64,000 nucleotides of DNA from an uncultured Gammaproteobacteria bacterium (lineage in GTDB: Bacteria; Pseudomonadota; Gammaproteobacteria; Steroidobacterales; Foliamicaceae). The notes beneath the pieces were generated by a model. The model saw only the letters and a list, made by a program, of their open reading frames with translations, was not told the origin of the DNA and did no database searches. The translations under genes were made by a program, and so were the position numbers. The stretch spans positions 2,309,556 to 2,373,555 of the forward strand of contig OX639965.1 in the NCBI GenBank assembly GCA_951828235.1, read 5' to 3'. Below are positions 1 through 10,224 of this stretch, piece by piece. Each line of letters starts with the position of its first letter. Positions within the stretch are counted from its first letter, which is position 1.

Positions 1-1629
1 ATGGGTGGAGCGCCTGATGAGCGCTCGCTCTGCAAGAAAATCTGAGGTTTGTTTGTTGAATGCATGGCGCGCCTGGATGTCCCAGCCCAAGTCCATCGTG
101 TAATCCGTCTCCGTATCAAATTGTGGCCAATCGGGAAGACCAGGGCCGTTAGGATTGCCGGTCTTGGCGAAATTCAGCCAGTAACCTCGAACGATTTCGC
201 CAAAGCGCCTGTCCTCATCGTTCAGTTCCACCGCCACGGGCCGGTGGTAGTCGGGCTGATCCCAAATGTGACCGAAAAGATAGGGGACCTCCATGCCATG
301 CGGTGCGCCAGGCGTAGTTGATCGCAGGCTTTCCGGAAGATACGTGACATGGTAGTGCCATGCCGGTGCGGAAACAGAACGCATTTCCTTTGCCAGGTGT
401 CGGGTAGAGGCAATAAACAAGCCCTCGCCAAACCACCTTTGCGAAACGCCAATTCGCGTCCATTTGTCATCGAATATTGCAAGATCATCTTCGCTCAAAC
501 CCTTGAGCAGGGAACTTGCCATAAACCACTTTGCAATCAGGGGAACGTTGTCGATCTGGTTCCATTCCCAGTTGCTGACGCCAGTCATGTAAGGGACGTT
601 GTGTTGACGCCCCTGTTCGAACATTCTCGCGATATCACCCGGTACCAGGTTGCCATCAATGACGGGATTAAGTACAAGGTCGGGCGGCGGATATTCGATC
701 AGCGTCTCGATCGGAAGTGATCGTAACGCGCTGGCTACCTCATCGGAAGTGCCGGAGAGTCCAACATGTTCAGCGAATTCAACGCCCACGTCTTCCATCG
801 ACGCGTAAGCCGCGCCCGGAAGACTGCGTTGGGACAGATGACGGGAGCAATCCAGTTGGACGGCACTGCCCTGCGCAATGGCTCTATGGAACAATCCCCT
901 TGATTGCGGCGTGATCATCAGGAAGTTGACCATGACGCCACCTGCCGAATGACCGAAAATTGTAATGCTTTCCGGGTCGCCGCCGATTGCTTCAACATTG
1001 TCGTTGACCCATTGAAGTGCGGCTATGGCGTCCATAAGCGAATAATTTGCGAGCAATTCGTCGCTCTGGAGTCGGGATAGGGCGGGATGCGCGAACTGAC
1101 CCAACAATCCCAGGCGGTAATTTGGGGTGACAACAATTACACCTTCAGAGGCGAGATCGTCACCGGTCCACACGGGCCAGCTTGACGACGCGTACTTCCA
1201 GGCGCTGCCGTGAAAATACACCATGACGGGTAGTTTTTCCCCCGCGGCGTGCTTGGGTCGCCAGATATTCAGAGTGAGACAATCTTCACTAGTCCCGACT
1301 GACCGAAGATGTTCTTTGCCCCACTCCGGGCGGCTATCAGGAATGGTTTGCGGGCAGGCGTGACCAAACTCGCCGGAGTTTCTTATTCGGGCGTACGCTG
1401 CGAAGGGCTGCGGAGGGCGCCAACGCAATGCGCCAACAGGCGGGGCCGCATAAGGAACGCCCTTCCAGGCCAGGACATCATCCTCGATCACACCGCGAAA
1501 CTGACCACTTGTAGTTTCAATCAGTGTTTCGTCGGACTGGCTATTCGCGCTTCTTATGCAAGTAATGTTGGTCAGCACTATTGCGCACATGACCATCAGG
1601 CGCATTAGCTTTGGTGTCTTGCGAATCAT
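1..1629 (-). CDS. Type-B carboxylesterase, 3' end outside window
   Basis: The reverse strand is open from an ATG at 1629 to the window edge, about 543 residues, with no stop seen. It is an alpha/beta-hydrolase of the carboxylesterase type B family. The family signature SEDCLTLNIW lies near residue 90. The nucleophile elbow reads GHSAGG (Ser about 228) where GESAGG is usual. The catalytic His is in PHGMEVPYLFG (about 444). The hydrophobic N-terminus MRLMVMCAIVLTNITC suggests export. It hydrolyses carboxylic esters, but the substrate is unknown. It starts 45 bp after the multicopper oxidase stop on the same strand, so it is probably the last gene of that operon. GTG codons just upstream are alternative starts. 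Judged by family length, only a short C-terminal piece is missing. Confidence 0.85.
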   Translation of the reverse strand, partial: MIRKTPKLMRLMVMCAIVLTNITCIRSANSQSDETLIETTSGQFRGVIEDDVLAWKGVPYAAPPVGALRWRPPQPFAAYARIRNSGEFGHACPQTIPDSRPEWGKEHLRSVGTSEDCLTLNIWRPKHAAGEKLPVMVYFHGSAWKYASSSWPVWTGDDLASEGVIVVTPNYRLGLLGQFAHPALSRLQSDELLANYSLMDAIAALQWVNDNVEAIGGDPESITIFGHSAGGVMVNFLMITPQSRGLFHRAIAQGSAVQLDCSRHLSQRSLPGAAYASMEDVGVEFAEHVGLSGTSDEVASALRSLPIETLIEYPPPDLVLNPVIDGNLVPGDIARMFEQGRQHNVPYMTGVSNWEWNQIDNVPLIAKWFMASSLLKGLSEDDLAIFDDKWTRIGVSQRWFGEGLFIASTRHLAKEMRSVSAPAWHYHVTYLPESLRSTTPGAPHGMEVPYLFGHIWDQPDYHRPVAVELNDEDRRFGEIVRGYWLNFAKTGNPNGPGLPDWPQFDTETDYTMDLGWDIQARHAFNKQTSDFLAERALIRRSTH

Positions 1630-1674
1630 CCGAATCACGCTGTCCAAGTTCCCGTTTACATCACCACTCAAGTC

Positions 1675-3576
1675 TCAATCTGGCTCAATCACCACGAGTT
1701 CAGTGATCATGCCCAGACCCGCATGGTTGAAGATGTGGCAGTGAAATAACCATCGGCCGGCGCCACCGCCCGGCTCGCCGGTTTCGATGTAGGGTCGGTC
1801 TTCCAGCCGAACTCGCATTACGAGGATGTGGTTCGGGGGAACGTCCACCGTGTCCACGAACTCGGACGGATACTCAAAAACGACAGTTTCTTCTGCATCT
1901 CTGCGCTCTATCAGGCGAACGGGCTGAAAGGAAAAACCATGCAGATGCATCGGATGATGCATCTGCGTGCGGTTATGGAGCCGCAATTCAAGAAGATCGC
2001 CCAGACGTGCCCAGCGGCTCGAGTAGACATGAGGAACTGCGCGAAAATCGACTGCTTCTGTGCCCTCAAGCTGAATGCCGTGAATTCCATCCATGGATTC
2101 GCGCATACCGACGATCGCTAAACTGATTGTCTCGTCAGACAGGCCTGGCTGTGGCTCATCAAAGGTGTAAGGATCCAGGAGATGATCTTTGATTTCCTCA
2201 TTACGGATATCCACGACCGGATCGTTGATCGCCGGATGGACTCTCAACGGATCGCCAGCTTCAATTGCGAAAACGGGACTCCCGGTATTCTCGACGATCC
2301 GAAAATGGGCTACCGGTACGGTCGGTATGTTGCCGTAACCATTCGGGTATTCCTGAGTGCCGTAATGGCGAAAATCCAATGTCCAAAGCGTGAGTACGTC
2401 TCCAACCCTGGCGCCATCAGGTACTTGTAAGACGACGTCCTTTCGCGTCGCATTCGAAAGGAGAATCTCGCCGCCGTCGAATTTGAAGTCCAGACCCTGC
2501 TGCACACCGCCCTCAAGACGCACATAGTCCAATAGTCCGCCTTCACCGCCTATGCGATAGAGAGGGACTTTTGCTCCCTTTTGGTCAGTGAGACGCAGCC
2601 GAAAGTAACGGGCAACGGAAGCATTCAGGATTTGCAGGCGCACCCCTTGACCGGCCCGCACATCAATAAAGTCATCACCATCCTCCACGGCACCGGGAGC
2701 GTCCGGAGAGCCATCCCGTGGGGCTGCCCTCAGCCCATTCGTCAAAACCAGCTGCCCCTCATTGACGCGGCAATCGAACTTCGGGCCACAGTTGACGGGC
2801 GGCATTACATTGGGAATCTCTCCGGCAGCGAGAGGGCCCGAGTCGAGGAGATTACCGTGATTGTCCCGTGGTGTTTCGCAAAGGTCTTTCGGTGTGGGGT
2901 AAGCGGAGTGCCCGGCAAAAGGGCCGTACTGGTTGCTGAAGGCCCAGGGTTTGTGCGGGTCCTCGGGGAAAGTTGCGAAATCGTTCTTGCCGGGTTCCTT
3001 GCAGACCGTCGTATCCGACAACATCAAGGTATGCGTTTGCGAGGGAAGTACACCAAGCTCAGTCAGCGCCCGGTCTGCATGGTCGGTGACGATGATCGGT
3101 CCGAAAAGTCCCTTGAACTCTTTGTTTGCGGGCATGGAGTGAGAGTGGTACCAGAATATTCCGGGGCGGGTCACGCGGAACCTGTAAGTAAAGGTCTCGC
3201 CGGTCCCAACCGGATTTTGCGTTACGGTCGTGCCGTCATTTGGGTTGTCGAGTTCGATGCCATGCCAGTGCACGGTCATCGGTTCGTCGAGGCGGTTTGT
3301 GAAATGGGCAATGACCTTGTCGCCGACCTGCAGGCTCAATTCCGGACCAGGCGTCCCGCCGTTGAATGTGTAGGCATTTGCCATCAAGCCGTTACCCGTA
3401 AGGTCGACGGGCAATTTTTCTGCGACAAGTTCGAATTCAAGTACGGTCGGTGAAGCGTCCAGATCCTCAACCGTCGGCAACGAGCCAGATCCGGTAGCGC
3501 TGTTTGCCGTTTGTGGCTCCAATAAAGCGGCGCAGGCCGCAAATGCAAAGCCAGCCATCTTCAAGGGACGACTCAC
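1675..3576 (-). CDS. Secreted multicopper oxidase (laccase-like)
   Basis: 633 residues with an N-terminal signal-like stretch (about 1-27). All four copper-binding segments of three-domain multicopper oxidases are present: HWHG (103-106), HSH (144-146), HHPMHLHG (about 546-553) and HCHIFNHAGLGM (612-623). The last supplies the type-1 Cys and a Met in the axial position. The family oxidises phenols, metals or other donors while reducing O2 to water, and would act in the periplasm or outside. The start codon overlaps the stop of the upstream gene by ATGA, so the two are probably translationally coupled. The natural substrate cannot be read from the sequence. Its neighbours suggest an oxidative catabolic role rather than a copper-resistance operon, since no copA/copB-type partner is seen. 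Confidence 0.93.
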   Translation of the reverse strand: MSRPLKMAGFAFAACAALLEPQTANSATGSGSLPTVEDLDASPTVLEFELVAEKLPVDLTGNGLMANAYTFNGGTPGPELSLQVGDKVIAHFTNRLDEPMTVHWHGIELDNPNDGTTVTQNPVGTGETFTYRFRVTRPGIFWYHSHSMPANKEFKGLFGPIIVTDHADRALTELGVLPSQTHTLMLSDTTVCKEPGKNDFATFPEDPHKPWAFSNQYGPFAGHSAYPTPKDLCETPRDNHGNLLDSGPLAAGEIPNVMPPVNCGPKFDCRVNEGQLVLTNGLRAAPRDGSPDAPGAVEDGDDFIDVRAGQGVRLQILNASVARYFRLRLTDQKGAKVPLYRIGGEGGLLDYVRLEGGVQQGLDFKFDGGEILLSNATRKDVVLQVPDGARVGDVLTLWTLDFRHYGTQEYPNGYGNIPTVPVAHFRIVENTGSPVFAIEAGDPLRVHPAINDPVVDIRNEEIKDHLLDPYTFDEPQPGLSDETISLAIVGMRESMDGIHGIQLEGTEAVDFRAVPHVYSSRWARLGDLLELRLHNRTQMHHPMHLHGFSFQPVRLIERRDAEETVVFEYPSEFVDTVDVPPNHILVMRVRLEDRPYIETGEPGGGAGRWLFHCHIFNHAGLGMITELVVIEPD

Positions 3577-4595
3577 TCTGCGCGGCGAGCTGTCATGCGT
3601 CCGGCGGTCCAGGAGTTGACCTGGGGTTCAGGGGGCTGAAAGATCGGTGGGCCGGCGTCAAGGCGTATTTCCTTGGTCCAGTATCCTTCAAGCGTAACGA
3701 CCTGCCGTGAGGCATCAGTCACCACTTTCAGCAGAAGGTTGTCGAGGCCGTAGTCCTGCTTGTCGCTGCCCCAGACGGTTTGGCCCTTGAGGCAAGAGTC
3801 GCCGCCGACGTTGTCCCTGCACGCCTGGCCCTCAACCACAGCGGTTGACTGAGCGCCGATATTTCCTCCCAGGGCTTCACCTCGTGCAATAGATGCGCTG
3901 CCCGGTGTTTGCCAGTCACCCTGAGCGTTTTGGCCGGTTTCGATCTTTTGGGCATGCTCTGCAGGAAAACAATCGTCCGGATGATCGGCAAGGCAGATCT
4001 GCGAAGGGAAGCCCCTTGACGCAATGACGTAGTCAAACCCGCCGTGAGCATTGCGCGTGGCGGAATCCACGGCCGTCGGCGCAATCGTATGAGTAATGTT
4101 CTTCCACGAGTGAACCGCGCGCGGCTGTGCGTTGACGTTACCGCCCTGCACTGAACGGATTTCCGGAATGTTTGTAATCAAACTGCGAGCCGCAGGTCCC
4201 ACGATCAGTGTCGCGCTTATCAGATCATCCTCCGGGTCGCCCGACGATTGATCGTCAAGCGTGACAGTCCCGGTCATCAATGGGGCGTGGCGGGCATCTC
4301 CCGCCGACGGCACGTAAAGCGGGTCGGCCAATTCGCTATCAATTTCGAAATAGACGGCATTCGAAACCGGACCGACCCATGGCAATGGATTGCCCACAAG
4401 TTCCTCAGTTACGCGGCTGTAGGAGCAATCGCTCAAGTAGAAGAATTTTGACAAATGCAAGCAATTGTTTTCCTGGCTGTTGTTGAATTTGCCTTCAACA
4501 TTGGTTGTAACCGATCCGGCGACGGCTGATTCAGTACCAGCAAACGCAATGAGAACGATCACTGCAGTCGTGGCCAATCTACCGATGGATTGCAT
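3573..4595 (-). CDS. Secreted protein of unknown function, coupled to multicopper oxidase
   Basis: About 340 residues. The chosen ATG at 4595 follows a GGAGGGG Shine-Dalgarno and opens directly into a signal peptide (MQSIGRLATTAVIVLIAF, cleavage near AVAG). An in-frame ATG at 4652 would put 19 polar residues ahead of it, which is less likely. The mature part has several Cys residues (for example NNCLHLSKFFYLSDC) and no motif I recognise. It overlaps the oxidase start by four bases, so the two products are probably made together. It could be an oxidase partner, a substrate-binding protein or an enzyme of an undescribed family. The gene is clearly real from its signal peptide, ribosome site and tight packing; the function is open. 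Confidence 0.8.
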   Translation of the reverse strand: MQSIGRLATTAVIVLIAFAGTESAVAGSVTTNVEGKFNNSQENNCLHLSKFFYLSDCSYSRVTEELVGNPLPWVGPVSNAVYFEIDSELADPLYVPSAGDARHAPLMTGTVTLDDQSSGDPEDDLISATLIVGPAARSLITNIPEIRSVQGGNVNAQPRAVHSWKNITHTIAPTAVDSATRNAHGGFDYVIASRGFPSQICLADHPDDCFPAEHAQKIETGQNAQGDWQTPGSASIARGEALGGNIGAQSTAVVEGQACRDNVGGDSCLKGQTVWGSDKQDYGLDNLLLKVVTDASRQVVTLEGYWTKEIRLDAGPPIFQPPEPQVNSWTAGRMTARRAE

Positions 4596-4624
4596 ACCAG
4601 CACGTCCCCTCCAAGATTGTGTGC

Positions 4625-5035
4625 TCACGCTTCCATGGGCTCTGCAAACCACCAGCGATGGCCCTGGAAATCTTCGGCCAAATAAATGCGGTTGCCGTAA
4701 TCCCGGTCGCCGGGCTCAATGTGAATCTTCGCTCCCGCGGCCCGTGCCTGCTTGCAATGCTCTTCTACATCGTCAACGTAAACGTGAAGCGTCTGAGTAT
4801 TTGTGCCGTTAATGGAACGGGGACTCTTCAGTTCCCTAACCTTGGCTGCATCTCCGACCATGATCATGCCGTCCCCAAACACCAGTTCCGAATGCTGAAG
4901 TTTGCCGTCTGGTGACTGGATCTTGAGTCGAACCTCGAAGCCGAAGGCTTCACAAAGCCAGTCCATCGCAGCGACCGGGTCATCGTAGTAGACGTTCGAT
5001 GCAATACGTGTGTAACCATCAGGGATTGGTTTCAT
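4625..5035 (-). CDS. VOC-family (glyoxalase/PhnB-like) protein
   Basis: 136 residues from the ATG at 5035, preceded by GAAGGAG at good spacing; a longer in-frame reading from 5146 has no such support. The sequence shows the paired beta-alpha-beta-beta-beta pattern of the vicinal oxygen chelate superfamily, with NVYYDDPVAAMDWLCEAFGF at the N-terminus and DYGNRIYLAEDFQGHRWWFA at the C-terminus. Members are glyoxalases, ring-cleavage dioxygenases, epimerases or drug-binding proteins. This one resembles the PhnB-like group, for which activity cannot be predicted. It lies 40 bp after the TauD-type gene in the leftward operon. Confidence 0.85.
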   Translation of the reverse strand: MKPIPDGYTRIASNVYYDDPVAAMDWLCEAFGFEVRLKIQSPDGKLQHSELVFGDGMIMVGDAAKVRELKSPRSINGTNTQTLHVYVDDVEEHCKQARAAGAKIHIEPGDRDYGNRIYLAEDFQGHRWWFAEPMEA

Positions 5036-5075
5036 ATTGAAGTCTCCTTCTCGAGCGCTTGAGCCTGTAGTCTTG

Positions 5076-5939
5076 TCAGGGACGTGGCGGCTCCTCAGCA
5101 GCAATGGATACGCGGTGAAACAGTCGGCGCCCGTCGAAATGATCATCGATGCGCTTATGCGCTGTGCATCGATTGTCCCAAATGCATACTGATCGGGGGT
5201 CCCAATTCCAGCGACATTGAAATTCGGGCTTGGCGATATGTTTTCTCAGAAACCGCAAGATCGCGTCACTCTCGTCGTTCTCAAGATCATTGATGTGACG
5301 GGTACGGAAAGGGTCGACAAAGAGTGCTGACCTCCCGGTCTCAGGATGCGTGTGAACCACGGGGTGGTTGATGGGCGGATGCCAAAACATATCCAACATC
5401 CGTTTCATTGCCGGCTCGGCACTGATGAAGCGTTCGACCATAGCGAAATCGAGCTTCGGAAACGTAGCCGTCTTTCCGGTCAACAGTTTCTTCATGCTGT
5501 CCGACAGATGGTCGTAGGCGTCGTACATATTTACCCAGATCGTGTCTCCGCCGGCTTCTGGCGTCTCCAGACAAAAGAGCACGGCTGCCTTGGACGGTAT
5601 GTCTCTTGAGGAAACATCGATATGAATCGTGTCTGTCGGCGGCGCATTTTCCATCCATGCGGTCTGCTCGAAGATCTCGATGTCCGGCTCTTCCTTGACT
5701 CTGAGTTCCGGAGGAATGAACGGAAGAATCTCGGGCTTGCCAAACAGAGAGGCGAACGCCTTGAACTGAGAAGGAGCCAAAGTCTGATCGCGAAAGAAGA
5801 GCACCTGATGCTCTAGCCAGGCGTCGTGGAGCTGACTCACAACCGCAGCGTTCAGGGTATGGGAAAGATCCAATCCCGTGACTTCCGCGCCCAGTGCCCC
5901 GGCCAGAGGTCGAAGATCAAAATTCTGGTCCGTCATCAC
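5076..5939 (-). CDS. TauD/TfdA-family Fe(II)/2-oxoglutarate dioxygenase
   Basis: 287 residues, the usual family length. The metal-binding facial triad is visible as HID in the IHIDVSS segment (about 106-108) and the distal His in NRCTAHKRIDD (about 261), followed by the 2-oxoglutarate-binding Arg region GRRLFHR. The segment HPVVHTHPETGRSALFV is typical of TauD/TfdA enzymes. These hydroxylate a substrate while decarboxylating 2-oxoglutarate, often releasing sulfite or cleaving an ether. It is the first gene of the leftward operon, so expression probably starts at the divergent promoter region 5940-6227. The substrate is unknown, and no sulfonate transporter accompanies it. Confidence 0.92.
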   Translation of the reverse strand: MMTDQNFDLRPLAGALGAEVTGLDLSHTLNAAVVSQLHDAWLEHQVLFFRDQTLAPSQFKAFASLFGKPEILPFIPPELRVKEEPDIEIFEQTAWMENAPPTDTIHIDVSSRDIPSKAAVLFCLETPEAGGDTIWVNMYDAYDHLSDSMKKLLTGKTATFPKLDFAMVERFISAEPAMKRMLDMFWHPPINHPVVHTHPETGRSALFVDPFRTRHINDLENDESDAILRFLRKHIAKPEFQCRWNWDPRSVCIWDNRCTAHKRIDDHFDGRRLFHRVSIAAEEPPRP

Positions 5940-6063
5940 AATACCTCCGTTATTCGCATTGCATCAGGGGTGACTCACTGGACCAGCGCTGCTGCTGGCC
6001 AGAAAACCGGCGTTTATTGATCGTTGCCGCATTTCCTTTTACCGGGCACCACGCCGATAAAAG

Positions 6064-6076
6064 ATACCAAGTAGTA
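6064..6076. promoter_or_regulatory. Candidate TetR operator, copy 1 (leftward promoter)
   Basis: ATACCAAGTAGTA, the exact reverse complement of the copy at 6203-6215. Read leftwards it lies between a possible -35 (TTGTGC) and runs into a possible -10 (TATCTT) of the promoter serving the dioxygenase-oxidase operon. Its position relative to the -10 matches that of the second copy. Operator function is inferred from symmetry and from the neighbouring TetR gene. Confidence 0.6.
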
Positions 6077-6202
6077 TGAAATAAGCACAAGAACTTACTA
6101 TACGGTTTGTTTTTGGCCTGTCAATTGGACCTTTTATCAAATGAATGCCAAGAAACGTCCCACTTTGTGTAACGTAATGGTCGCATATTTCAAACAATAA
6201 TT

Positions 6203-6215
6203 TACTACTTGGTAT
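6203..6215. promoter_or_regulatory. Candidate TetR operator, copy 2 (rightward promoter)
   Basis: TACTACTTGGTAT, which overlaps a good -10 box (TATACT, 6213-6218) for the rightward regulator-receptor transcript. It is the mirror image of 6064-6076, with 126 bp between the two. A regulator bound here would block the promoter directly. The rest of 5940-6227 holds no gene that I can see. Confidence 0.6.
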
Positions 6216-6227
6216 ACTTAGGCCGAT

Positions 6228-6950
6228 ATGGAGGTTGAGACTTTGACAGACTTAGCGATTCAAACGGAGGCCGTGCGCGGCAAGAGGCAGCGGAACAGAG
6301 AGCAAAACAAGCGGGCTATGTTGAACGCTTTTGAATCTATCCTTGTGCGGGACGGAATTCACAATCTGCGGACACAGACACTGATGGACGAAGCGGGCTT
6401 GGGAAAGCCTGCCCTGTACAGCTATTTCGGTGGCATGTCCGGCCTCCTCAAGGCCTGGCTGAAGAAGAATCCGCTTTGGCCACAGGCGACCGATCTCGTG
6501 GACGGACACGAATACGGCGAGCTCGACCGACTGCCGGTCATGGAACGCATTCGATTGAGCCTTATTGGCGCAGCCAATCATTGGCACGAGAATGAAGCTG
6601 TAGCGCGGCTCATGGCAGAGGAACTCTCGGGGCCCACACCCTTCTCGAAAACGCTGGCTGAGCTCCGGCGGCAAAAACAGGATGAGGTCACCCAAGATCT
6701 GGCGAGCGACGCGGAAGTTCTCGCGCGAGACAATTGGAGAATACTCGTCGTTCTCTATGCTGCGGTGTCGTTCGCCTCAATGCGGCGGCTTTCGGATACG
6801 CAATACCTGAACCTTGAGCTTCACACGGACGAAGGCTGGAAGGACTTCCTGTCCATGATTTCCGAATTGATTGACGATCTCGCGCTTGCGGCCACCGTAA
6901 AACAGGCCGCAAGAGAATCGGTCGAACGCCAGGAGAGCAAATCCCGATGA
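6228..6950 (+). CDS. TetR-family transcriptional regulator
   Basis: 240 residues from ATG 6228. A helix-turn-helix typical of TetR proteins spans about 35-75 (TLMDEAGLGKPALYSYFGG), followed by an all-alpha ligand-binding part with no recognisable ligand signature. A second possible start is TTG 6243: GGAGG at 6230-6234 sits 8 bases before it, and the likely -10 at 6213-6218 would leave almost no leader for ATG 6228. The gene is divergent from the dioxygenase operon and immediately precedes the TonB-dependent receptor, so it is the obvious local regulator of both. Confidence 0.9.
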   Translation: MEVETLTDLAIQTEAVRGKRQRNREQNKRAMLNAFESILVRDGIHNLRTQTLMDEAGLGKPALYSYFGGMSGLLKAWLKKNPLWPQATDLVDGHEYGELDRLPVMERIRLSLIGAANHWHENEAVARLMAEELSGPTPFSKTLAELRRQKQDEVTQDLASDAEVLARDNWRILVVLYAAVSFASMRRLSDTQYLNLELHTDEGWKDFLSMISELIDDLALAATVKQAARESVERQESKSR

Positions 6951-7027
6951 AGATGCTCATCGGCATGGCGCGCAGCAGGCTGACTGCGTATCCCGCAGCT
7001 TGGGGGACATTATCAAGGGGGTATGTC

Positions 7028-9475
7028 ATGGCCAAAATCCAAACAAAGATCGGGTTAGTCGCAGCAACGATGCTTGCTGCTTCGGGGTACGCGGGGCTTG
7101 CGAATGCTCAGGAAGGCGCCGCAGCACTGGAGGAAATCGTCGTCACCGCGCGCAGGGTCGAGGAGCGGCTGCAGGACGTGCCGTTGGCTATCTCGGCATT
7201 CAGCGCCGCCGAAATCGCATCCGCGTCGATCGAGAATCTTGATGACGTGGCAAATTTCACGCCGGGCATGACCTTTTCCAATTTGTTTGGCGAGTTTCTT
7301 CCCGTACCCGTGATTCGGGGCATCGCGCCCACGGCGGTCCAGGGCCGGGAGAACAATGCGGCGATCTTCGTTGACGGCGTGTTTATCTCCGGTCGCGAAG
7401 GACTGAACTTCAGTCAGCTCGACCTCGAGCGCATTGAGGTGGTCAAGGGGCCCCAGGCGGCCATGTATGGCCGTAACAGCTTCAGCGGCGCGATCAATTT
7501 CGTCACCGCACGACCGACGGACGAGCTTCAGGGCAAGGCGGAATTGACTTTCGGGGACAACGGTCGAGTCGTATTGTCGGGTGCGGTAAGTGGCCCCATC
7601 ATCGAGGGCAAGATGCGCGGTCGACTCGCGATCATGAAGAATGAATGGGACGGTTCCTACGAGAACCAGGTGACCGATGGTCCGGACATCGGCGGATTCA
7701 ACTACGACACCTTCCAGGGCAGCCTTCATTTCACGCCAACGGAGCAATCCGAGATAGGCCTGTCACTTTATGTCTCGAACGATGACATCGACAATTCCGC
7801 CGTGAGCGCCCTGACGATGAACTGCGAGAACACCAGCGCCCGGGGCGAGAGACTGGCAAATTATTGTGGTGAGTTACCCTCGATCGCCGAGGACGACTTA
7901 AGCGTGATATCCCGTGCCACCGGCGAGAATCGGGACGTGGTTCGCGGCAGCGTCACCTTGCGACTGGATCACGAGCTCGGAACATTCGCCGCGTCATCGG
8001 GGTATTCCAATGTAGATCAGACTTTTTTTGTGGACGGCTCCCGTGGCGATGGGACAACGAGGCTCGCCTATCAGTCGCGATTCTCGCCGTTTCCGCGTGC
8101 CTATGTGCTCGGCACCTTCGATACGGAATGGCTGCAAATCGGCCCGGGCGATGAGACTGAGGAGTTTAGCCAGGAGATACGGTTCACGAGTCCGGAAGAC
8201 CGCGCCTTGCGCTACAGCGTTGGGGCCTACTATTACACGGTCGATGCGGAGGCCAAGACGAGTGGCGTCGTCTCCTTGACACCGCAGCCATTTGGTTTTT
8301 CCAACTTCTGTCCCTGCGTCGAGTTCTTCCCTGGCGTCGGGTTCGCCGTCCCGGCGTTTCCTGGAACATCGATAGGCGACCTGGCTCTTCGCCAATGGTT
8401 TTCGGGGGCCACTGGCGACGCCCGCGATGAAGTCGAATTTGTAAACGAGACGGACGCGTGGGCCGTATTCGGGTCCGTTGACTGGGACCTGTCCGAACGC
8501 CTGACCGGCCGCGTGGAATTGCGCTACACGGATGAAGACAGGAGAGTCCAGGATTTCGAGGGTGGATATGATCTGAACAACACCTGGGACTTCCTTACCT
8601 GGCGTGCGACCCTGGACTACAAGCCCTCGCAGAACACCATGTTTTACGGATCCATAGCAGGAGCCGAAAAAAGCGGTGATTTCGACTTTGATACCGATAC
8701 GAATATCAACGGCGAAATGGTCTCTGTGGTCAGCTACATCGACCCGGAAAAGAACACGTCGTTTGAGCTGGGCGTGAAGGGCACCTACCTGGGCGGCCGC
8801 TTAAACAGCGACATCGCCGTGTATTTCATCGATTGGTCCAAGATCGTGATCCCGCAACTGGTAGCGGTGGACCCGAACGGAGTCCCGCTGACCGAGCTCC
8901 TGCAGCTGGACATGAATGCCGGCGACGCATCCGTGCAAGGCCTTGAGGCGACGTTGACTTTCGCTTTCACCGACAACCTGACCGGGTCACTGGGCTTTTC
9001 TCTGACGGATTCCGAGTTCGACGACGCCAAGATAGAGTCATTTGCCGACTTTCCCAGCTTCGCACCGGATGGCGACGTGTCCGGTAACGAGTTGTTGCGC
9101 CAGTCCGCGGTCCAGGCGAACGGCACGCTTACCTACCGGCGCGAATTTCGAGGCGATATGGACTGGTATGTGCGTGGTGACGTGCTGCATACCGGCAGTC
9201 AGTGGCTGGGGGCGCCCAACCAGGCGGAAATACCTGCCCATACCTACGTGAATCTGCGCCTGGGACTCGATTCGGAGCGTTTCACACTGGAAGTGTGGTC
9301 GGAGAATCTATTCGATGATGACAAGCCTATAGCAGGGTTCCGCGACGTCTTCTTTGCGAACGCTCTGCCCGGGGGAGGCACTGGCGGCTTCTTCGATACC
9401 TTGTTCCCGTTCCGGATTACCTTGTCTCACCCACGCCGTCGTCAGGTGGGCGTTACCGCACGTTTCCGGTTCTAG
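7028..9475 (+). CDS. TonB-dependent outer-membrane receptor
   Basis: 815 residues from ATG 7028, which follows AAGGGGG (7015-7021) and opens a signal peptide ending near LANAQ. An ATG at 6947 overlapping the regulator stop gives 27 extra residues before the signal peptide and is less likely. EEIVVTARR follows the signal peptide and marks the TonB-box/plug start. The plug domain continues with VPLAISAF and GRNSFSGAINFVTARP, and a long beta-barrel ends in FRF, the usual outer-membrane C-terminus. It imports a ligand using TonB energy. Because it is co-transcribed with the TetR gene and divergent from the dioxygenase-oxidase-esterase operon, it probably takes up that operon's substrate. Confidence 0.93.
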   Translation: MAKIQTKIGLVAATMLAASGYAGLANAQEGAAALEEIVVTARRVEERLQDVPLAISAFSAAEIASASIENLDDVANFTPGMTFSNLFGEFLPVPVIRGIAPTAVQGRENNAAIFVDGVFISGREGLNFSQLDLERIEVVKGPQAAMYGRNSFSGAINFVTARPTDELQGKAELTFGDNGRVVLSGAVSGPIIEGKMRGRLAIMKNEWDGSYENQVTDGPDIGGFNYDTFQGSLHFTPTEQSEIGLSLYVSNDDIDNSAVSALTMNCENTSARGERLANYCGELPSIAEDDLSVISRATGENRDVVRGSVTLRLDHELGTFAASSGYSNVDQTFFVDGSRGDGTTRLAYQSRFSPFPRAYVLGTFDTEWLQIGPGDETEEFSQEIRFTSPEDRALRYSVGAYYYTVDAEAKTSGVVSLTPQPFGFSNFCPCVEFFPGVGFAVPAFPGTSIGDLALRQWFSGATGDARDEVEFVNETDAWAVFGSVDWDLSERLTGRVELRYTDEDRRVQDFEGGYDLNNTWDFLTWRATLDYKPSQNTMFYGSIAGAEKSGDFDFDTDTNINGEMVSVVSYIDPEKNTSFELGVKGTYLGGRLNSDIAVYFIDWSKIVIPQLVAVDPNGVPLTELLQLDMNAGDASVQGLEATLTFAFTDNLTGSLGFSLTDSEFDDAKIESFADFPSFAPDGDVSGNELLRQSAVQANGTLTYRREFRGDMDWYVRGDVLHTGSQWLGAPNQAEIPAHTYVNLRLGLDSERFTLEVWSENLFDDDKPIAGFRDVFFANALPGGGTGGFFDTLFPFRITLSHPRRRQVGVTARFRF

Positions 9476-9511
9476 GCAGGCAACGCGTCAGCGCCTGCGA
9501 CTTCTCGATGC

Positions 9512-9540
9512 GCCTGGGAGCGAGGCCGTCTCGCCCTCTT
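9512..9540. repeat. Dispersed intergenic repeat, copy 1
   Basis: The sequence GGGAGCGAGGCCGTCTCGCC with flanks matches a core seen again at 19601-19630 and 23651-23680. It lies in the gap between two converging genes. Confidence 0.5.
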
Positions 9541-9573
9541 CACAGGGAGTAAAACCGAGCGCGCTTGGTGTCT

Positions 9574-9595
9574 GGAGGGCGGGCGCCCGCCCTCC
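9574..9595. repeat. Perfect 22-bp GC palindrome between converging genes
   Basis: GGAGGGCGGGC is followed directly by its reverse complement GCCCGCCCTCC. It sits 5 bp before the end of the leftward gene at 9601 and after the receptor gene. It could form a bidirectional transcription-stopping hairpin, but there is no T tract. The half-site GGAGGGCGGG recurs at 44664-44673. Confidence 0.6.
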
Positions 9596-9600
9596 CAGGG

Positions 9601-10224
9601 TCAGAACATCATGCCGTGACCGGCGCCTACCATGCTCGCCAGCATCGGAATCGAAAGCAGCGTGTTGGTGCGCGAGAACAGGAAAGCGGTCCGCCGCGCC
9701 TTGTTGATTTCTTCGGCGCTGGCTTCCACGATGCCGAGTACCTTCTTCTGGTTGGGCCAGATGACGATCCACACGTTGAACAGCATGATCGATCCGAGCC
9801 AGGCGCCGATGCCGAGCGTCAGCCCGTACATGGCATCCCCTCCGCCCGATACCAGGCCGAGGGTAAACACGTTGATGGTGTCCTGCTTGTGAAGCAGGAA
9901 GGTGAATCCGGCCAGCCATGTGACCAGGGCGCCCCAGCGGAACCACCAGAGTGCGCGGGGCGCCACGTAGCGGGTAATGGCGGCGCCACTGGGCCCGCCG
10001 TCGTCGGAGGCGGCGTCGGAAAGCGCCTGCACCTGCACGAAATTGAAGTAATACAAAAGTCCTATCCAGGTAATGCCCGCGAACACGTGCAGCCAGATCA
10101 GGAATGAGTTGACGATGTTGGCGCCGGCCATCGAACTGCCGGTGAGCGCCGCGATGGCCATGATGATCAGGGAGAGTACAAGGCCGCCTACGAGCGTGCC
10201 TGTTAGTGTATTCAATGGGTTCAT
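9601..10224 (-). CDS. Membrane protein resembling the N-terminal domain of PuuD urate hydroxylase
   Basis: 207 residues with about five hydrophobic segments. The stretch WLHVFAGITWIGLLYYFNFV and the paired Trp residues in PRALWWFRWGA match the Urate_ox_N membrane domain pattern. The ATG follows GAGGGG at good spacing. Full-length PuuD adds a C-terminal cytochrome-c-like domain, which is absent here, so enzymatic urate oxidation is not implied. Many proteobacteria carry such stand-alone domains of unknown role. It is convergent with the TonB-dependent receptor. Confidence 0.7.
   Translation of the reverse strand: MNPLNTLTGTLVGGLVLSLIIMAIAALTGSSMAGANIVNSFLIWLHVFAGITWIGLLYYFNFVQVQALSDAASDDGGPSGAAITRYVAPRALWWFRWGALVTWLAGFTFLLHKQDTINVFTLGLVSGGGDAMYGLTLGIGAWLGSIMLFNVWIVIWPNQKKVLGIVEASAEEINKARRTAFLFSRTNTLLSIPMLASMVGAGHGMMF

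Follow-up and report, generated by a model that had tools for sequence, protein, structure and literature searches.

The stretch of DNA analyzed here (the window, 64 kb; G000:C1:2309556-2373555) is part of the single-contig, 3.11 Mb genome G000 of an uncultured gammaproteobacterium, and it opens with seven genes that form a discrete island: a type-B carboxylesterase (EST), a multicopper oxidase (MCO), an undescribed secreted protein (UNK), a VOC/glyoxalase-fold protein (VOC), a TauD/TfdA-family Fe(II)/2-oxoglutarate oxygenase (TauD), a TetR-family regulator (TetR), and a TonB-dependent receptor (TBDR). As judged by comparison of sequences, the island is a block inserted as one piece in some species of a sponge-associated genus. 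We regard it as roughly an even proposition that this block is a horizontally acquired, TetR-controlled cassette that takes up one class of organic compound and breaks it down by oxidation; its regulation, the order of its steps, the role of UNK, and the class of substrate are what we infer below.

The island, its empty sites, and its promoters

The island comprises exactly the seven genes from EST to TBDR, over 9,493 bp. Its GC content is 55.9%, against 62.4-62.6% in the surroundings, and lies below that of every 9.5 kb segment of the remaining window sequence (minimum, 57.5%); third-position GC is 0.60-0.71 in the island genes and 0.77-0.89 in their neighbors. Relatives were searched as genome samples, with 9 genomes of the genus, 396 of the order, 369 of the class, and 359 of the phylum. 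Among the nine genus genomes, UNK together with a TauD orthologue (90-91% identical) occurs only in G000, G001, and G002, and in six congeners that are 91-95% complete, the TauD orthologue, UNK, and MCO are jointly absent. MCO was found in G000 and G002, the G001 contig ending inside UNK ahead of the MCO position, and a fourth carrier, the metagenome-assembled genome (MAG) COS2_bin_10, has UNK, MCO, and EST in the same order. The low GC content and the patchy presence together point to a horizontal origin.

Sister species preserve the empty site. The PuuD-like and SPFH genes that flank the island in the window lie about 10 bp apart in G007, and in G006 the PuuD-like gene adjoins nadC; comparison of the junctions with these two sites (L124 and L130, respectively) puts the island's right-hand border, next to the PuuD-like gene, at 9476..9603. 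Within this right flank, 24 nt (9493-9516) match the 3' end of the G006 nadC without a difference, and the nadC of G000 itself carries another, G007-like 3' end; the junction of nadC and the PuuD-like gene is thus the probable site of a recombination event. No target-site duplication was found at the island ends. All seven genes are under purifying selection between species, with dN/dS values of 0.08-0.16 (EST, 0.15 against COS2_bin_10; MCO, 0.12; UNK, 0.12-0.16; VOC, 0.08-0.12; TauD, 0.09; TetR, 0.12-0.14), which indicates that all of them are in use. Because the island is discrete and sister species have empty sites, the grouping of the genes goes far beyond chance. The proposal of an initial annotation, made from the window's letters, that the seven genes act as one unit is thus strengthened by the gain of the island, by selection on its genes, and by a candidate operator common to both promoters.

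Transcription on the minus strand runs in the order TauD, VOC, UNK, MCO, and EST, and TetR and TBDR diverge from it on the plus strand. A repeated site is present in the divergent promoter region, one copy per promoter, as is expected where a TetR protein controls its neighbors: candidate operator 1 (ATACCAAGTAGTA; 6064..6076, plus strand), just downstream of the operon promoter, forms a 13-nt perfect inverted repeat with candidate operator 2 (TACTACTTGGTAT on the plus strand; 6203..6215, minus strand), which lies over the -10 region of tetR. No other copy of the repeat occurs in the 64 kb, even with one mismatch, and the mean in shuffled sequences is 0.01. The TauD operon is preceded by a sigma-70-like promoter (TTGACA-16-TATAGT; 6097..6124, minus strand) with 11/12 consensus matches, and tetR-TBDR by a weak sigma-70-like promoter from a consensus scan (TTCAAA-18-TATACT; 6189..6218, plus strand), which operator 2 overlaps; a match in such a scan is by itself no evidence of function. 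The CTTGGTATACTTA core of the tetR-side copy is kept in loci L017 and L022 of G001 and G002. With this arrangement, TetR would repress both divergent promoters.

The gene identities and the divergent layout given in the initial annotation are correct by profile matches and open reading frame (ORF) positions. EST (1..1629, minus strand, start approximate; PF00135, E = 1e-96) runs 18 bp beyond window position 1, to G000:2309538, and is complete at L002:14539-16185. MCO (1675..3576, minus strand; PF07732/PF07731) may start at GTG 3576 or ATG 3558 and is followed upstream by its fixed partner UNK (3573..4595, minus strand; 340 aa), by VOC (4625..5035, minus strand; PF00903, E = 3e-13), and by TauD (5076..5936, minus strand; ATG 5936 or GTG 5939; PF02668, E = 2e-56). 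On the other side lie TetR (6228..6950, plus strand; PF00440, E = 8e-7), conserved in G001 and G002, and TBDR (7028..9475, plus strand; PF00593/PF07715). The mechanical ORF of TBDR begins at 6947, with an ATGA by the tetR stop codon; in the sister species G001 this ATGA is not in the reading frame of the receptor, and the conserved start at 7028 is therefore more likely. Similarly, a 173-aa ORF for VOC proved over-extended, and the conserved start gives 136 aa. The tight packing with ATGA overlaps that had been described mostly disappears when conserved starts are used, as these leave gaps of 40 nt between TauD and VOC, 29 nt between VOC and UNK, and about 45 nt between MCO and EST; what stands is one candidate 4-nt overlap, GTGA, formed by the UNK stop and the GTG start of MCO.

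Signal peptides were judged by eye. UNK and TBDR have signal-like N termini, MCO and EST, which we take as exported, have them less clearly, and TauD and VOC, assigned to the cytoplasm, have none; a lipobox match was seen in two of five MCO sequences checked but not in that of the window. The idea, put forward in the initial annotation, of processing outside and then inside the cell would fit the signals on some products and their absence from others.

Several features of the surroundings were also recorded. To the right of the island, a 207-aa membrane protein with a partial Urate_ox_N profile match (window:9601-10224) is conserved next to the site of the island in all five species that were compared, and an IS110-family transposase (window:10851-11888; RNA-guided in its NCBIfam name) lies about 0.6 kb past the PuuD-like gene. 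A CXXC-protein gene is present there in G001 and G007 and was not detected in the part of the window up to 40 kb. To the left, in island-bearing and island-free species alike, are an AMP-binding ligase, a UbiD-type decarboxylase, and a PaaI-like thioesterase (L002:8508-12050), which may be unrelated housekeeping genes or possibly a downstream aromatic-acid step.

The nearest named relatives of the window genome are the metagenome bins RHO1_bin_71 (Gammaproteobacteria) and COS2_bin_10. Read from the names alone, the prefixes suggest the sponges Rhopaloeides and Coscinoderma, both of which were sampled in one study (PMC8163846). The public record of COS2_bin_10 (L016) is titled Rhodobacteraceae, a label contradicted by its gene order, which is that of the window genus, and by protein identities of 79-95% to the window genome. 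As the contig matches the gammaproteobacterial genus gene for gene, either contig or name is probably misassigned.

The UNK-MCO pair

MCO retains the four copper-ligand motifs of its superfamily (at 103, 142, 541, and 612, including HCHxxxHxxxGM), and its best PDB match, at a bit score of 97, covers the first cupredoxin domain. It shares all copper ligands with CopA, CueO, and laccase but differs from them in falling under every curated cutoff (123.7 bits against 478.95 for CopA, 80.8 against 525 for CueO, and 74.8 against 558.9 for laccase TIGR03389), in having no Met-rich motifs (MxM, MxxM), and in being always paired with UNK in the genomes searched. Given scores so far under the CopA and CueO cutoffs and the absence of Met-rich motifs, copper resistance is unlikely. 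A broader role in copper (or iron) homeostasis would make MCO a cuprous or ferrous oxidase, UNK a metal-binding protein, and TBDR a receptor for metal or metallophore, with the other genes as passengers; the type-1 copper axial Met of MCO, the frequent import of metal complexes by TonB receptors, and a weak similarity of TBDR to siderophore receptors (116.7 bits against the TIGR01783 cutoff of 223.5, so that this identity was rejected) would all suit it. We nevertheless hold this role to be improbable, as the low CopA and CueO scores of MCO and its lack of Met-rich motifs speak against it, UNK has no visible metal-motif repeats, no copper chaperone or ATPase is encoded in the island, and the TauD, EST, and Rieske partners would go unexplained.

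UNK has no Pfam, NCBIfam, or PDB sequence match. Six Cys residues are invariant across six relatives in the family alignment, and no metal-motif repeats were seen among its 7 Cys and 8 His in 359 aa; a structure model built from three sequences was discarded (pLDDT 26). The MCO profile finds 12 of the 396 genomes of the order at E = 1e-80 or better, and UNK is directly adjacent in all 12, which belong to the genus of the window and, in a second family (f15), to three genera (g15, g20, and g305). UNK in the class and phylum samples comes only from members of this order, and a plasmid search returned no UNK and only generic MCO matches. Trees of the MCO-linked UNKs are compatible with a single origin of the pairing, without proving it.

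In the second family, where genes were called by a simple script and neighbors with marginal calls may escape, 7 of 10 loci have a TBDR, an oxygenase (TauD, VanA-type Rieske, or luciferase-like), or both next to the pair. Around the pair in L020 are GntR, a TauD (36% identical), an MFS gene, two VanA-type Rieske oxygenases, a TBDR, and a luciferase-like oxidoreductase; L060 has an esterase (50-51%), TetR, a Rieske oxygenase, and a TBDR, L021 a TBDR and a luciferase-like gene, and L033 a TBDR. Luciferase-like genes also lie near the pair in L018, L057, and L061/L065 (apparently split over two contigs), and in L058, L059, and L062 no receptor, oxygenase, or esterase was found nearby. These loci suggest that the exported pair is constant, with import and inside-oxidation partners that vary. 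It could be speculated, as a tentative proposal to which we give rather less than even weight, that UNK founds a new family of secreted partners, dedicated substrate-presenting or -activating subunits that enable a distinct MCO subfamily to act on an extracellular compound that is bulky or polymeric, and that the pair is a portable module recruiting various receptors, esterases, and cytoplasmic oxygenases by lineage.

Further members of the UNK family are found apart from MCO. Copies lie directly beside GH3-family enzymes (L019:9295-12076 and L063:8333-11134) and beside an AMP-binding enzyme (L064:6745-9286), and by this adjacency, association with GH3-family and AMP-binding enzymes is a second recurrent partnership of the family. 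An UNK-like domain also forms the N terminus of long surface-type proteins of the second family, several per genome (L023:2-1984, L025:10033-11958, and L026:8862-11789). The one that was scanned, in L025, has Ig/cadherin-like repeats, L023 and L026 look similar, and these proteins carry a C-terminal hydrophobic stretch followed by Arg residues, resembling GlyGly-CTERM.

Across genomes, homologues of the island genes are linked in some loci only, which by the initial annotation's own test counts partly against it, and several observations weigh against a single TetR-controlled cassette. UNK-MCO linkage holds in 12/12 genomes, but in the second family the pair has no fixed association with TauD, VOC, or EST: TauD and VOC are replaced there by other oxygenases, and four of the five other-family genomes that match most closely have their EST homologues in another place. 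G002 retains TetR-TauD-VOC-UNK-MCO but has neither receptor nor esterase: the receptor was lost later, with a scar resembling its 3' end left behind, and no esterase stands between MCO and nadC. The two genes are either dispensable or were lost with the function. Only the window has the operator repeat in perfect form, the operon-side copy being degenerate in G001 and G002. With 79 TonB plug domains in 3.1 Mb, G000 is very receptor rich, and at an average of one receptor per 39 kb, a receptor adjoining a gene cluster is weak evidence alone. Finally, the island contains no ring-cleavage or funnel genes, and nothing here demonstrates aromatic catabolism.

Some of these points would be expected of a chance assembly, in which only UNK-MCO is functional and the other genes travel along without a common pathway: outside the genus only the pair is conserved, G002 has shed receptor and esterase, the closest EST homologues mostly lie elsewhere, and the island receptor is a paralogue of a core-genome receptor. 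Such an assembly is nonetheless very unlikely in our estimate, since order and orientation are kept in several species, operator elements are common to both promoters, every gene has a dN/dS of 0.08-0.16, and in another family the pair recurs with a receptor, an oxygenase, and (once) an esterase.

Enzymes of the island and possible substrates

TauD has the intact iron triad (H106-x-D108 and H261) and 2-oxoglutarate Arg (R276) of the TauD/TfdA superfamily, with the same fold and Fe/2-oxoglutarate ligands as TauD, the phenoxypropionate dioxygenase RdpA, and the alkylsulfatase AtsK; similarity is E = 1e-55 to TauD and 2e-43 to phenoxypropionate dioxygenase. It differs from TauD proper in that it scores 239.6 bits, below the curated NF007104 cutoff of 313 bits, and has Leu72, Ile75, and Thr102 at the positions of E. 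coli His70, Tyr73, and Asn95, which we take to be the sulfonate/taurine-contact residues. Taurine is therefore an unlikely substrate, and with ligands intact and contact positions changed, the reaction type alone can be deduced. The aromatic or ether-ester substrate put forward in the initial annotation is accordingly not borne out.

For TBDR, plug (PF07715) and barrel (PF00593) are above cutoff, and together with the signal-like N terminus from the conserved start they mark it as a receptor. It is a paralogue (73%) of a genus-core receptor beside groESL, of which nearly every species in the genus has a close relative (68-74%). The neighbors of this genus-wide paralogue that were examined (groESL/aroQ/accBC) include no catabolic genes and give no clue to a substrate.

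EST has the serine motif GHSAG at 240 and the catalytic His in HGME at 458, as type-B carboxylesterases do. In fumonisin catabolism, the esterase FumD is encoded beside a TonB receptor and a FumI-type aminotransferase. No aminotransferase is present in the island, which was therefore rejected as a fumonisin cluster, and no TauD, MCO, or UNK is known from the fumonisin system. The best solved match of EST is nonetheless fumonisin B1 esterase (8s6d; 214 bits), the likeness to FumD, a fumonisin esterase of Sphingopyxis (EC 3.1.1.87; PMC6784352), being at the family level only, with no substrate implied. The only solved match of VOC is TioX (3itw; E = 2e-16). TioX, which binds thiocoraline, has the VOC fold in common with the island protein but belongs to a biosynthetic cluster, unlike the uptake and oxidation context here.

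These two solved relatives make it conceivable that the island serves detoxification or counter-defense, by which the symbiont would disarm a bioactive ester or phenol that comes from its sponge host or from microbes nearby. The exported oxidase and esterase would inactivate the compound, VOC would sequester it, TauD would hydroxylate what enters, and TetR would sense it. Patchy presence within one genus, the low GC content, and relatives that appear to stem from coral-reef sponge MAGs agree with such a role, and TetR control is typical of detoxification and catabolism alike. A receptor within the unit, however, favors import over exclusion, no efflux pump is present in the island, and TBDR and MFS genes accompany the pair in some second-family loci, as in catabolic clusters, so that we consider detoxification unlikely, though with an appreciable share of the probability. 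The likeness of VOC to TioX could also be read as self-resistance beside genes that tailor or mature a secreted metabolite made by the cell itself, and TauD, MCO, VOC, and esterase enzymes all occur in tailoring or resistance. We judge this to have little chance of being correct, because a scaffold-forming enzyme (polyketide synthase [PKS], nonribosomal peptide synthetase [NRPS], terpene, or ribosomally synthesized and posttranslationally modified peptide [RiPP] precursor) was seen neither in the island nor in the neighboring genes that were examined, uptake is indicated by the receptor and the exported esterase, and the UNK-MCO pair recurs with varied catabolic-type oxygenases.

Under the cassette explanation, TetR, acting at the 13-nt operator pair, would keep the two divergent promoters repressed, and binding of an inducer would release them. 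Exported UNK might bind or present the substrate or scaffold the oxidase, a role that is a guess; MCO would oxidize the compound outside the inner membrane, and the exported EST would strip ester groups from it. TBDR could then carry substrate or products across the outer membrane, and in the cytoplasm TauD would hydroxylate or de-etherify the product and VOC would bind or rearrange an intermediate. The substrate is probably a phenolic or similarly bulky hydrophobic molecule with ester and/or ether groups. As close solved relatives, phenoxypropionate dioxygenase and fumonisin esterase would fit an ether- or ester-bearing substrate, without proving one.

Relation to known systems and significance

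A dedicated receptor for one aromatic substrate has been described in Sphingobium sp. SYK-6, in which DdvT is a TonB-dependent receptor for lignin-derived aromatics (lignin dimers) and 74 TonB receptor genes compare with the 79 plug domains of G000 (PMC8599685). SYK-6 differs in taxon, and the parts of that report consulted mention no UNK-MCO pair for it (PMC8599685). TonB-receptor uptake tied to aromatic catabolism is thus already known, and the new elements are the island, UNK as a family, and the strict pairing of that family with a single subfamily of MCO. In a literature search, no paper describing this gene set was found, in agreement with the initial annotation, which knew of no such pathway.

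The strictly linked, lineage-restricted secreted partner provides a direct handle on one MCO subfamily. To our knowledge, most bacterial multicopper oxidases have neither a known substrate nor a dedicated partner. Within one sponge-associated genus, the island also sets species apart by a discrete function, and its inducer could consequently be found by asking what turns on a single TetR promoter. Both the sponge and its microbiome are possible sources of the substrate.

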